Source of the DNA: Bacteroidales bacterium
GTDB taxonomy: Bacteria > Bacteroidota > Bacteroidia > Bacteroidales > VadinHA17
Direction of reading: 5' to 3'
Assembly: GCA_025358645.1 (NCBI GenBank)
Contig: JANYIW010000338.1
Span: 1-51,882, forward strand
Length of the DNA: 51,882 bases
Shown in pieces: positions 24,374 to 28,223 of this stretch; the stretch's first letter is position 1, and each line of letters begins with the position of its first letter. The notes beneath the pieces were generated by a model. That model worked only from the letters and a program-made list of their open reading frames with translations, was not told the DNA's origin and did not search any database. The position numbers and the translations under genes were made by a program.

Positions 24374-25558
24374 ATGAAAACAGATTTCAAATCAAGATTG
24401 AATCTCCTTACTGAAGAGCACCAGAAACTCTTGAACAGGGAAAATGAAAAAATTGACCCGGGAAACGGAATCTTTCACAGGTATAAATATCCTGTACTTA
24501 CAGGAGCCCATACACCTTTATACTGGAGATATGACCTCGATCCGGTAACAAATCCTCACCTGATGGAGCGCTTTGGCATTCATGCGGCATTCAATGCAGG
24601 TGCAATGAAGTTTGAAGGGAAATACATACTCGCTGTTCGTGTCGAAGGGAATGACCGGAAATCTTTTTTTGCAATCGCAGAAAGTCCAAACGGAGTTGAT
24701 AATTTCCGGTTCTGGGACTACCCGGTAACCATGCCTGAAACAGACAATCCTGATACAAACGTTTATGATATGCGCCTTACCATGCATGAAGACGGATGGA
24801 TTTACGGAATCTTTTGTTCTGAAAGAAAGGACCCTGCTGCTCCGGCTGGAGATCTCTCCTCTGCTGTTGCTGCTGCCGGTATAGCCCGTACTCATGATCT
24901 CAAAAAATGGGATAGGCTTCCTGATCTCAAAACAAGAAGTCAGCAACGAAATGTCGTGCTTCATCCGGAATTTGTAAATGGCAAATACGCACTCTATACG
25001 CGTCCTCAGGACGGATTTATTGATGCCGGATCAGGGGGTGGTATAGGTTGGGCGCTGATCGATGATATGACTCATGCCGAGATTAAAGAAGAGAAAATCA
25101 TAAACTTCCGTTATTATCATACTATTAAAGAACAGAAAAACGGGGAAGGACCCCATCCGGTAAAAACGAATGCAGGATGGCTGCATCTGGCACACGGTGT
25201 GAGAGGTTGTGCCGCCGGTTTGAGATACGTTCTCTATCTCTATATGACTGATTTAAAGGATCCTTCAAAACTCATAGCAGAACCGGCAGGATTTTTCATG
25301 GCTCCGGAAGGCGAAGAAAGAATTGGCGATGTTTCGAATGTGTTATTTACCAATGGCTGGATTATAGATGAAGATGGATTTGTATATATTTATTATGCTT
25401 CATCGGATACCAGGATGCATGTCGCAGTATCCACACTCGATAAACTTGTTGATTATTGCTTAAATACTCCGTCTGATGGTCTGCGGTCTGCTGCCTCTGT
25501 TGAGATACTTAAAAAGCTGATTGACAAGAATCTTAAACTTCAGAAAACGATAAAATAA
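24374..25558 (+). CDS. GH130 phosphorylase, 4-O-beta-D-mannosyl-D-glucose type
   Basis: A 394-residue cytoplasmic protein (no signal peptide) of the length and N-terminal sequence of GH130 subfamily 1 ([36 protein letters not shown]). The catalytic Asp is Asp132 in [17 protein letters not shown], matching Asp131 of the Bacteroides fragilis enzyme. Members phosphorolyse beta-1,4-mannosyl-glucose to mannose 1-phosphate and glucose. The next two genes encode a sugar symporter and a cellobiose 2-epimerase-type enzyme. That order is the described B. fragilis mannobiose route: import, epimerisation of mannobiose to mannosyl-glucose, then phosphorolysis. Genomic context therefore supports the specific activity more strongly than sequence alone. 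A related mannoside phosphorylase specificity remains possible. Confidence 0.88.
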
Positions 25559-25587
25559 TTTTCAAAACGCACTTTATAACTATTCCT

Positions 25588-26991
25588 ATGATCTCACAAA
25601 AACTGAAACTGAAAGAAAAGATAGGATATGGGTTTGGTGATGCTGCCAGCTCCATGTTCTGGAAGCTGTTCTCAATGTATCTTATGTTTTTTTACACTGA
25701 TGTTTTTGGAATTTCTGCCACTCTTGTCGGAACGATGTTTCTTGTCACCAGGATTTGGGATGCCGCTTTCGATCCTATTGTCGGGATCCTGGGTGACCGT
25801 ACTGAGACCCGGTGGGGTAAGTTCAGGCCATACCTTTTATGGATAGCTGTTCCTTTTGGAATTATAGGAGTTCTGACATTTACAACACCGGCGTTTACAG
25901 AGTCAGGAAAAGTGATTTATGCCTTCGTTACATATTCCCTTATGATGATGGTATACTCAATGATCAATGTACCTTACGCATCACTTATGGGTGTTATGAC
26001 TGCCGACGGAAAAGAGCGGACCAGTCTGGCTACTTTCAGATTCATTTTTGCTTTTGGGGGAAGTCTGCTTGTCCTTGCACTCGCTGAACCCCTGGTTGAT
26101 ATTTTCAGTAAACTGGGGAAAGGTGGTGTAAACCTCCAACAGGGATGGCAGTTAGCTGCTGTGGTATTTGCTCTTATAGCAATAACATTCTTCATGTTTA
26201 CTTTTTTATGGACACGTGAACGCGTTAAACCTGTAACAGTAAAAACATCGCTGAAAAAAGACCTTAACGACCTGTGGCATAATTCTCCGTGGTTCATTCT
26301 GCTTGGCGCTGGTATTGCAGCAATATTCTTTAATTCTATCCGCGACGGAGCAGCTATTTATTATTTCAAATATTATATTCAGGGACAAAGCGCCTTTTCA
26401 ATAAAAGCTGTAAATCTGACGATTACGCTAAGCAGTCTTTATTTTGTCCTTGGACAGGCCGCTAATATTGTCGGAGTTCTGCTTGCCAAACCAGTTTCCG
26501 ACAGGATAGGTAAGAAATACACTTTCATGTATGCTATGCTTTTTGCTACGGTGTTCAGTATTGGATTCTACTGGCTCGACAGGAGCAGCATAAACCTTAT
26601 TTTTATATTTCAGTTTTTAATAAGTATGAGCGCCGGCATTATCTTTCCTCTGGTATGGTCAATGTATGCAGACGCTTCCGACTACTCTGAATGGAAAACA
26701 GGTCGTCGTGCTACAGGTCTCGTCTTCTCGGCATCTTCAATGTCTCAGAAATTCGGATGGACAATTGGAGGTGCTCTGGCAGGCTGGCTTCTTGGATACT
26801 ACGGTTTTAAAGCGAATGTGGTCCAGACTGCCGAGGCTCAGACAGGAATAAAAATGATGCTGAGTTTCTTCCCGGCGATTGGAACTTTATTAGGAGCATT
26901 CTTCATGTTTATTTATCCGCTTAATGAAAAAAAGATGCTCACAATAAGCGCAGAACTGGCTGTAAGAAGAGATAGTGTGAAAGAAGAATAA
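25588..26991 (+). CDS. GPH-family sugar:cation symporter (MelB-like)
   Basis: A 467-residue inner-membrane transporter with about 12 hydrophobic segments. RIWDAAFDPIVGILGDRT carries the Asp-x3-Asp cation-site pair (Asp58, Asp62) seen in MelB, and the following RWGKFRPYLLW is the family loop motif. It is 29 bases after the GH130 gene and 32 before the epimerase gene. In that setting it most likely carries beta-1,4-mannobiose or a related disaccharide from the periplasm to the cytoplasm. Specificity is inferred from neighbours. Confidence 0.9.
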   Translation: MISQKLKLKEKIGYGFGDAASSMFWKLFSMYLMFFYTDVFGISATLVGTMFLVTRIWDAAFDPIVGILGDRTETRWGKFRPYLLWIAVPFGIIGVLTFTTPAFTESGKVIYAFVTYSLMMMVYSMINVPYASLMGVMTADGKERTSLATFRFIFAFGGSLLVLALAEPLVDIFSKLGKGGVNLQQGWQLAAVVFALIAITFFMFTFLWTRERVKPVTVKTSLKKDLNDLWHNSPWFILLGAGIAAIFFNSIRDGAAIYYFKYYIQGQSAFSIKAVNLTITLSSLYFVLGQAANIVGVLLAKPVSDRIGKKYTFMYAMLFATVFSIGFYWLDRSSINLIFIFQFLISMSAGIIFPLVWSMYADASDYSEWKTGRRATGLVFSASSMSQKFGWTIGGALAGWLLGYYGFKANVVQTAEAQTGIKMMLSFFPAIGTLLGAFFMFIYPLNEKKMLTISAELAVRRDSVKEE

Positions 26992-27023
26992 GGCCACCTG
27001 AAGGGCTATTTTAAAACAAATGC

Positions 27024-28223
27024 ATGTCAAAAAGCAACCTTGAAATACTTAAATCAGAAGTTAAAGAAGAATTAGTGACTAATATTCTTCCCTTCTGGAT
27101 GACAAAAATGATCGATTCCCAAAATGGTGGTTTCTATGGAAGGATTGATGGTTCTGGTCGTGTTCACGAGGATGCTGACAAAGGATGCGTATTAAATGCC
27201 AGAATACTGTGGACTTTTTCCTCAGCTTACAGGATTCTGAAAAATCCTGAATATCTTAAGACAGCTGAGAGATCAAAAGATTATCTCCTCAAACATTTCT
27301 TTGACAAGGAATTTGGCGGAGTATACTGGCTTTTGGATTATAAGGGGAATATTATAGACGGCAAAAAACAGATATATGCACAGGCATTTGCCATTTATGG
27401 GTTGACAGAATATTACCGTATTACAAATGATAAGACATGTCTCGATAAAGCAATCGACCTTTTCATGTTGATTGAAAAACAGAGTTATGATGACAAGCTT
27501 GATGGATATTTTGAAGCCTTCAGCAAAGAATGGGGTAACCTTGATGATCTTCGGCTTAGCACAAAAGATGCTAATGAGAAGAAGACCATGAATACTCACC
27601 TTCATGTTCTGGAAGCTTACACAAATCTTTACAGAATATGGAAAGATGATCTCCTGAAGAAACAATTGTACATACTTATCAATGTTTTTACTGATAAAAT
27701 CATAAATAGTTATACATTTAACCTTAATATGTTTTTTGATGAAAATTGGAACAATAAAACTGACTTTGTTTCATACGGCCATAACATTGAATCGTCGTGG
27801 CTTATTTATGAAGCTGCCCTGGTACTTGGGGATGAAGCTCTCATAAAAAAAGTGAAGAGGATATGTCTCAGGATAGCTGAATCATCAAAAGAGGGAATCA
27901 TGGCTGACGGCAGTATGATTTATGAAAAATTTATCAAGACGGGGAAAATAGATTCAGACAGACATTGGTGGGTACAAGCTGAAACCGTAATCGGGTATCT
28001 GAATGCATTTGGCTTATCCGGAGAAAAGGAATACCTGGATATGAGTCTGAAAACCTGGAGATTTATATCTGATAATCTGATCGACAATGAGAACGGGGAG
28101 TGGTACTGGAGTGTTGACAATAATCTGCTTCCGGATCTTAATGAAGATAAGGCCGGATTCTGGAAATGCCCCTATCATGATTCCAGGATGTGCCTTGAAA
28201 TAATTGAAAGATCTAATCAATAA
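27024..28223 (+). CDS. Cellobiose 2-epimerase (AGE family)
   Basis: A 399-residue cytoplasmic (alpha/alpha)6-barrel protein of the N-acylglucosamine 2-epimerase family. Cellobiose 2-epimerases convert beta-1,4-mannobiose to mannosyl-glucose, the substrate of the GH130 enzyme two genes upstream. Visible conserved features are [20 protein letters not shown], the active-site His253 in [15 protein letters not shown], His314 in RHWWVQAE and His385 in [12 protein letters not shown], which fit the general acid/base histidines of the family. The length is typical. It ends 5 bases before the GH2 start, implying one transcript. N-acylglucosamine epimerase activity is the alternative, but the partner genes argue for disaccharides. 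Confidence 0.9.

Follow-up and report, generated by a model that had tools for sequence, protein, structure and literature searches.

What are genes for the phosphorolysis of mannobiose doing 67 bases behind a glycosidase gene of an arabinose locus, and which signal would switch them on? The question is raised by a 51,882-base stretch of a Bacteroidales genome (the window; contig JANYIW010000338.1, here C181, bases 1-51882), where genes for a GH130 phosphorylase, a GPH-family symporter and an epimerase follow one another at 24374-28223; the genome, G000, comprises 4.06 Mb in 414 contigs. The initial annotation had read this trio as joined to an arabinan locus, with either a single transcription unit answering both arabinan and beta-mannan or one composite wall polysaccharide as the target. 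We find that the trio occupies, as an optional cassette, a variable slot in front of the mutarotase gene of what reads as an L-arabinose catabolic operon. The explanation that we consider best, and probable on the strength of gene content and comparison, is that this operon would be de-repressed by arabinose and that the mannobiose cassette occupies a slot in which hemicellulose genes are exchanged.

All three genes lie on the plus strand and are of the kinds first proposed. The GH130 gene (24374-25558, 394 amino acids, Pfam PF04041) has as its best solved relative the mannosylglucose phosphorylase of Bacteroides fragilis (3WAS, 693 bits over residues 7-391), followed by the Ruminococcus albus enzyme (5AY9, 525 bits, nearly full length), while the third-best structure scores just 102 bits. 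Its Asp132, in the motif NVYDMRLT, aligns with Asp131 of the 3WAS chain; similarity and catalytic aspartate together place the protein in GH130 subfamily 1, as a mannosylglucose phosphorylase whose phosphorolytic activity is predicted. Behind it lie a GPH-family sugar:cation symporter (25588-26991, 467 amino acids; TIGR00792, 404 bits against a cut-off of 231) and a cellobiose 2-epimerase-type enzyme, the proposed mannobiose 2-epimerase (27024-28223, 399 amino acids; 3WKF, 380 bits). Its His253, Glu256, Trp316 and His385 align with His259, Glu262, Trp322 and His390 of 3WKF, residues that we take to act in the active site, and this His/Trp set together with the similarity to solved epimerases makes it an enzyme of the cellobiose 2-epimerase type. 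It falls below the cut-off of the NCBIfam EpiA equivalog (402 bits versus 800), a narrow model, and we therefore claim only the general epimerase type. Judged by eye, none of the three N-termini looks signal-like; those of GH127b, GH51, GH127c, GH2, GH9, the esterase and GH3, all described below, do. By homology, the trio would be a kit for the cytoplasmic breakdown of beta-1,4-mannobiose and mannosylglucose. These enzymes are themselves ordinary for Bacteroidales. Among 80 loci compared, nine from the genus of the window and 71 others (57 of these with at least 5 kb downstream), the order phosphorylase-symporter-epimerase on one strand within 6 kb recurred in 9 of 9 and 21 of 71, respectively, and is thus common. 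The likeness drawn earlier to the mannan genes of B. fragilis holds for the order seen here, which we take to be the B. fragilis order as well. The window's genome has five GH130 matches in all, two of them on contig C115.

The gene in front of the trio encodes GH127c (21889-24306, plus strand), a protein with a lipoprotein-like N-terminus and a GH127 catalytic domain (PF07944, PF20736 and PF20737, all over cut-off). Its designation as a beta-L-arabinofuranosidase is reasonable but unproved, since the nearest structure is 6ex6 (745 bits) and the aceric acid hydrolase model, NF049879, scores only 474 bits against a cut-off of 950. Although that model was the sole NCBIfam hit, we rejected the identity it implies; GH127c also resembles 5mqo (310 bits) less than it does 6ex6, structures that we take to be BT1003, an aceric acid hydrolase, and BT3674, respectively. 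The gap of 67 bases behind it (24307-24373) is as first described, and the terminator scan of the window lists no terminator-like site there. That scan, of sigma-70 type and unsuited to the phylum, gave 43 promoter-like sites versus 47 in shuffled sequence and 21 terminator-like sites versus 14.

The join between GH127 and GH130 is not chance. Among 62 genomes of the genus, 52 have a match to GH127c of at least 64% identity, in some cases partial, and 12 have this GH130; in 11 of the 12 the phosphorylase gene shares contig and strand with the GH127c orthologue and lies downstream of it, in 10 cases within 4.3 kb (nine of the 11 are also among the 80 loci and are counted once). This recurrence takes the join beyond chance, and because of it we rejected misassembly as its source. 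The two genes are 67 bases apart in the window's genome, 157 from the end of the match in G158 and 1.7-4.3 kb apart in eight others; in G150 the distance is 17.8 kb, with a gene of the size of a two-component regulator and a SusC gene in between. Outside the genus, the window's three GH127 types were found within 10 kb upstream of GH130 in 0 of 71 loci (52 of which had at least 4.4 kb there). The nearest loci come from nine metagenome genomes with 87-92% GH130 identity, seven of which bear isolate names beginning with fen_, names that are our sole source for a fen habitat. The GH130 proteins of the genus form one clade (12 rows, support 100/91) in which the G196 copy branches first and the other 11 stand together at 86/83. 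One capture into the ara locus probably explains this tree, followed by losses or transfers, between which the tree does not tell; neither these tree counts nor the Fisher test given below takes account of shared descent. Because one joining event is enough, the tree would also suit a trio that is a mere passenger of a rearrangement, sharing neither regulation nor function with the locus and kept there by inheritance within the genus. We hold this to be very unlikely: the genes between GH127c and GH130 and those after the epimerase have been exchanged repeatedly, with direction and mostly short gaps kept, which passive linkage would not predict.

The locus that received the trio is wider than the arabinan locus first described. 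The window opens with the 3' part of araB (L-ribulokinase, 2-1270, plus strand, FGGY_C), cut by the contig start, and its first 141 bases are identical to the end of contig C40, on which araP, araA, araR, araD and the start of araB stand in line. This exact overlap between C40 and C181 puts the trio downstream of the arabinose genes in the window's own genome too. The operon reads araP-araA-araR-araD-araB-GH51-GH127-[slot]-mutarotase-oxidoreductase-GH3. In the relative locus L010, the araB orthologue (L010:4479-6152) is above the TIGR01234 and NF003154 ribulokinase cut-offs, ribulokinase and arabinose isomerase both pass equivalog cut-offs, and the ribulose-5-phosphate 4-epimerase passes two subfamily cut-offs, not that of TIGR00760. 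The upstream backbone araA-araR-araD-araB-GH51-GH127 is present in genomes with and without the trio, with some exceptions: G198 lacks ara genes before GH51, G169 has araP directly before araB, and no GH51 match precedes GH127c in G205, G182 or G208. In the window, the GH51 position is taken by GH51b (20230-21798, plus strand; 2vrk, 621 bits), an alpha-L-arabinofuranosidase family member that is matched in 9 of 11 fetched genomes with the trio and 17 of 20 without, mostly right after araB, and is comparable to abf3, the distal gene of the Bacteroides ara operon. "Arabinan" is therefore too narrow a name, because the unit is an arabinose catabolic operon with added glycosidases and an exchangeable slot.

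The regulator that would govern this operon is encoded within it. AraR is of the NUDIX and winged-helix type (PF21906, PF00293 and the AraR_C domain PF19368, all over cut-off on L010:3004-3711), and its homologue on C40, 80% identical, lies between araA and araD. In Bacteroides thetaiotaomicron, BtAraR (BT0354) contacts DNA through Asp178, Lys179, Arg180, Asn181, Arg183 and Lys184 and reads a GTGT element (PMC4666351); the AraR proteins of the window's genome and of G158 carry the matching DKRNFRKK. The operator searches in relatives covered the fetched stretches; of 15 such stretches taken for araP, 14 contained the gene. The operator model was built on the araP promoters of the genus. A pattern search finds the motif TTTAAGTGTAATCCTTACATTTAAA followed by TA[AG]ATTTG before araP in 12 of 14 genomes. 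In the remaining two a matrix scan recovers it, at 2.1 kb before araP in G159 and, in G206, as a near-palindrome that scores higher on the opposite strand. We base the identity of the motif on its place, the GTGT and the palindrome. Regulator type and position, recognition residues and an operator before the operon together point to a Bacteroidetes AraR regulon.

A second predicted operator lies within the window at 9494-9519 (plus strand, score 34.6, equal to the best training site), 282 bases before the start of a SusC gene (9802), and is followed by a -7 box, TAGATTTG. Its exact core occurs at two places in the 4.06-Mb genome, C40:5509-5530 before araP and window 9496-9517 before SusC, and three further places match with two mismatches; allowing up to two mismatches, there are 7 strand matches at 5 places versus 1 for a reversed control pattern. 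The next best site in the window, AGTGTA-N5-TACACG at 1337-1363, 15 bases before GH51a, scores 14.0 (11.5 on the other strand), which is within the range of ten shuffles (8.7-16.2), and is an uncertain candidate only. Between 17000 and 35300 of the window no operator score exceeds 7.1. Away from the araP promoters, hits scoring 15-23 were seen in L110, L122, L131, L133, L143 and L147. The operator before SusC belongs to a 16.4-kb block (1261-17671) with GH51, GH127, DUF5695, SusC, SusD and BNR repeat genes that is absent from the nearest relative, G179, in whose locus L107 the match to window 2-1260 is followed directly by that to 17672-24347, at 96%. With up to 13 candidates scored per genome, a search of the other 61 genus genomes gave no match to the SusC of this insert at E 1e-250. 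Just before the operator, the insert encodes a DUF5695 protein of 922 amino acids (6561-9329), perhaps an uncharacterised carbohydrate enzyme; a BNR/sortilin-type repeat protein (14575-17274) follows SusC and SusD.

How variable the slot is became apparent in 31 fetched genomes, 11 with the trio and 20 without, chosen for a GH127c match and surrounding room; several of these stretches end at contig ends, so that a missing module is no proof of absence. The typical series runs from araA-araR-araD-araB-GH51-GH127 through a changing set of mostly same-strand genes to a mutarotase and often a GFO/IDH/MocA oxidoreductase and a GH3 gene. The changing set draws on the trio, a GH2 beta-galactosidase, GH9, a CE20-like esterase, GH31, a second GH9-like gene, a beta-helix gene and a chorismatase-like gene. 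Without the trio, GH127 and the mutarotase may thus enclose GH9 and the esterase (G188), the chorismatase-like gene (G182, G199 and G173) or the GH9-like gene (G208). In the window, the trio is followed on the plus strand, 5 bases after the epimerase gene, by a LacZ-type GH2 beta-galactosidase with a secreted-looking N-terminus (28229-31399; NF052611, 952 bits against a cut-off of 999; 6sd0, 636 bits), then by a GH9 endoglucanase (31421-33166; 6dht, the xyloglucan-specific BoGH9A, 589 bits) and an esterase (33214-35217) assigned to the CE20-like carbohydrate acetylesterases by its similarity to 9h4u (417 bits), 9ega (401) and 7kmm (338), structures that we take to belong to CE20. The 3' border of the slot is an aldose 1-epimerase, an AraM-like mutarotase (36985-38109, plus strand, PF01263), found in 9 of 11 trio genomes and 10 of 20 others; beyond it on the same strand lie the oxidoreductase (38136-39446; 8 of 11 and 4 of 20) and the GH3 glycosidase (39619-42270; 5 of 11 and 1 of 20), many of the stretches behind these three counts being partial.

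If the trio were a unit of its own, it should bring its promoter along. G179 matches the window at 96% up to 24347, which leaves 26 bases to the GH130 start, and from there departs towards a hybrid two-component regulator gene; the eight trio genomes compared, out of 11 other GH130 genomes, become similar to the window from 24350-24374 onwards, at most 24 bases before the start codon. The 67-base gap (24307-24373, plus strand) is thus the breakpoint between ara backbone and cassette. What precedes GH130 varies among the 12 genomes over five kinds of gene (chorismatase-like in 5, GH127c in 2, GH31 in 2, beta-helix in 2, an unnamed open reading frame in 1), always on the same strand. The gap measures 7-67 bases in 10 of 12; it reaches 287 bases in G155 and, with the choice of start codon, about 71-104 in G159. 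The Bacteroidota -7 consensus is TANNTTTG. None of the 12 genomes has this box within 160 bases upstream of GH130, a weak test, as only about 0.8 boxes would be expected by chance across all of them; and no AraR site travelling with the trio was found in the fetched stretches. We thus rejected a promoter travelling with the trio, none having been found by conserved sequence (8 of 11), by -7 box (12 of 12) or by AraR site. Similarity that begins next to the GH130 start codon, behind a preceding gene that varies, is what leaves none to be recognised.

These findings bear on the possibility that two independent units merely touch, one for arabinose that stops with GH127c and one for mannan/xyloglucan that begins at GH130, under a promoter of its own in the gap or the end of GH127c. 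The parts are evidently separable: 41 of 50 genus genomes without GH130 keep a GH127c match of at least 64% identity, and G196 keeps its trio elsewhere. We nevertheless regard independent units as unlikely, given the lack of similarity beyond 24 bases before the start codon in the eight genomes, gaps down to 7 bases behind five kinds of upstream gene and, for what little weight it has, the missing TANNTTTG box. The single transcription unit of the initial annotation is thus favoured by the breakpoints, by the varied, close, same-strand upstream genes and by the AraR operator upstream. The regulator, its operator and the modular slot are additions to that annotation.

Several points weigh against placing the trio under AraR. 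Almost 15 kb separate the operator at 9494 from GH130, a gap of 409 bases (17275-17683) precedes GH127b, and a possible -7 box stands 69 bases before GH51b, so that transcription of the trio may begin internally and independently of AraR. The similarity test could moreover miss a short promoter where intergenic DNA changes fast, and the -7 test has low power. NCBIfam does not name the regulator AraR, its best model being NtrR at 121 bits against a cut-off of 400, and G185 has the operator and the ara genes with no araR match between araA and araD. G196 is the sole GH130 genome with the trio outside the ara locus, the genus set includes metagenome-assembled genomes, and both the arabinose induction of the trio and its co-transcription with the arabinose operon are ones that we infer from sequence. 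The main weakness of the bolder reading given below, arabinose as the gate to mannan use, lies with the mannanase. Only one GH26 gene was found in the window's genome; it is truncated by the end of its contig, C163, where its neighbours are GH97 and a DUF5597/GH35-like gene, and there is no AraR operator match on that contig; the production of mannobiose is therefore not visibly tied to arabinose, which speaks against a fully arabinose-gated mannan pathway. As for G196, its trio has genes for an ADP-ribosylglycohydrolase and a PfkB-type sugar kinase for company, in a series at 888-15231 of L138 (G196:C99) that may show an older neighbourhood of the cassette.

That the trio serves mannan at all is suggested by the company it keeps across genomes. 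GH26 is found in 11 of 12 GH130 genomes versus 20 of 50 others (Fisher p = 0.0026, uncorrected for kinship); three GH5-like genes were also found. We rejected the usual mannan locus, with GH26 beside the trio, as no GH26 is among the window genes and the gene lies elsewhere in the genome. With GH26 on a separate contig, the trio probably acts on mannobiose that a mannanase encoded elsewhere releases from mannan, or on mannosylglucose derived from glucomannan.

The other target proposed for the locus, one composite polysaccharide with L-arabinofuranose, a mannose-glucose backbone and galactose, such as a galactose-decorated glucomannan or an arabinosylated xyloglucan, has the breadth of the region in its favour, where GH51, GH127, GH130, GH2, GH9, an esterase, GH3 and an alpha-galactosidase-like GH27 stand together. 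The genes around the trio would also suit xyloglucan-type chains: with the window's GH9 nearest BoGH9A, its esterase nearest CE20-type enzymes and the GH31 directly before GH130 in L012 nearest BoGH31A (1349 bits), the slot appears to have a xyloglucan flavour beside the mannobiose trio. A fixed polymer should, however, keep its set together, and the modules vary singly. Among the 11 trio genomes GH2 occurs in 4, GH9 in 7 and the esterase in 5 (stretches partly incomplete), and among the 20 others the esterase occurs in 4 and GH2 in 3. As the genes behind the trio resemble xyloglucan enzymes and vary independently of it, the composite target is unsupported and, in our view, quite improbable.

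The picture that we favour, a mannobiose cassette in the slot of an arabinose-de-repressed operon, would work as follows. In a Bacteroidales genus for which the nearest records are mostly fen-named, the variable middle slot of the L-arabinose operon would have received the trio, probably once. AraR, a NUDIX/NrtR-type repressor by analogy with the B. thetaiotaomicron study, would sit on the operators before araP and, in the window's genome, before SusC at 9802; L-arabinose would release it, and transcription would run through GH51, GH127, GH130, symporter, epimerase, GH2, GH9 and esterase. Secreted hydrolases would trim hemicellulose fragments, the symporter would import mannobiose or mannosylglucose, the epimerase would convert mannobiose to mannosylglucose, and the phosphorylase would split the latter into mannose 1-phosphate and glucose. 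Arabinose would thus be a general sign of plant wall, and the slot genes would be swapped to suit the local hemicellulose mix. Going further, we propose tentatively, and with slightly more doubt than conviction, that arabinose gates the use of beta-mannan and also of xyloglucan; that the AraR operon is an exchange platform which takes up promoterless hemicellulose cassettes gene by gene, so that one side-chain sugar switches on unrelated backbones; and that AraR promoters are copied, as in the second operator of the 16-kb SusC/SusD insert.

Much of this extends a known pattern. The enzymes and the regulator are of known kinds. In Bacteroides, the AraR regulon comprises araMPRDAB and abf3; its operons have an arabinofuranosidase gene at the distal end and are induced by L-arabinose, and further targets include GH51, GH43, GH2, GH97 and SusC/SusD genes, with no mannosylglucose phosphorylase among those named in the excerpted text of the study (PMC4666351). 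As far as that text describes it, the present operon shares the NUDIX/NrtR-type regulator within the operon, the transporter, araA, araD, araB and the distal arabinofuranosidase gene, the GTGT-containing operator in front and, by prediction, SusC-SusD genes under AraR; unlike it, the operon here goes on with GH127, then an exchangeable slot and, distally, a mutarotase gene. The pairing of GH130 subfamily 1 with an epimerase is likewise that of mannobiose phosphorolysis in B. fragilis, where the phosphorylase is BF0772, and in Roseburia intestinalis (PMC8950772, PMC6385246). For the R. intestinalis GH130_1 enzyme, mannosylglucose in the presence of phosphate is reported as the sole substrate; for mannobiose made by GH26, B. 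fragilis and Bacteroides ovatus are said to use epimerase and GH130_1 (PMC6385246). The window differs from the B. fragilis mannan cluster in having no GH26 mannanase and an arabinose operator upstream instead. We take a GH26 mannanase to be part of that cluster. The window's GH9 and the L012 GH31, nearest to BoGH9A and BoGH31A (so named in the PDB listing), the xyloglucan enzymes of B. ovatus, are here optional genes of an arabinose operon; the window's esterase is nearest to CE20 acetylesterases (PMC8245568, PMC12313940). We found no published description of a mannosylglucose phosphorylase in an AraR operon among the titles and abstract openings of the open-licence papers listed. What is new is a variable cassette slot in an arabinose operon that holds mannobiose phosphorolysis.

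Glycan loci of Bacteroidota are usually described as having one sensor per polysaccharide. Here the sensor would be that of arabinose, and the cargo is enzymes of mannobiose and xyloglucan type that change between species at gene borders on a constant backbone. This suggests that arabinose may also signal the use of other plant-wall sugars. Were arabinose induction true, bacteria of plant walls could take a side-chain sugar as a stand-in for other hemicelluloses, and diet would be reflected in what an operon slot contains instead of in separate loci.

A few genes in and around the slot deserve mention. Between the 16.4-kb block and GH51b lies GH127b (17684-20041, plus strand; 5opj, 484 bits), a GH127/GH146-type glycosidase with a secreted-looking N-terminus. 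A HipA C-domain gene on the minus strand (35241-36545), between esterase and mutarotase, has no match in the compared genus loci. The chorismatase-like slot protein (L007:8828-9982 and relatives) has 384 amino acids with FkbO/Hyg5 chorismatase-like and Rid (L-PSP) domains; it scores 144 bits against a chorismatase cut-off of 325 and occurs in 6 of the 11 fetched genomes with the trio and in 8 of the 20 without it, standing directly before GH130 in five. GH127c and a right-handed beta-helix read as one frame of about 1150 amino acids at L006:5271-8744 and L008:5271-8723 (the beta-helix is shown for L006) and are separate genes in other relatives, which points to a fusion or to a stop lost in a metagenome-assembled genome. 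A large slot gene of 1355-1414 amino acids recurs at L107:9978-14222, L133:1650-5861, L122:6773-10939 and L117:10234-14298; in L107 it encodes a hybrid two-component regulator (Reg_prop, HATPase, response regulator and AraC-type HTH), and in L133 and L122 a SusC gene follows, as though whole regulated loci enter the slot too. Genes split into two overlapping frames in single relatives (GH2 in L009, GH51 in L007, GPH in L008) may be assembly errors or decay. Beyond the operon end, the window holds a GH27 alpha-galactosidase gene (42359-43612, minus strand) and a second LacZ-type GH2 gene (46285-49566, plus strand).

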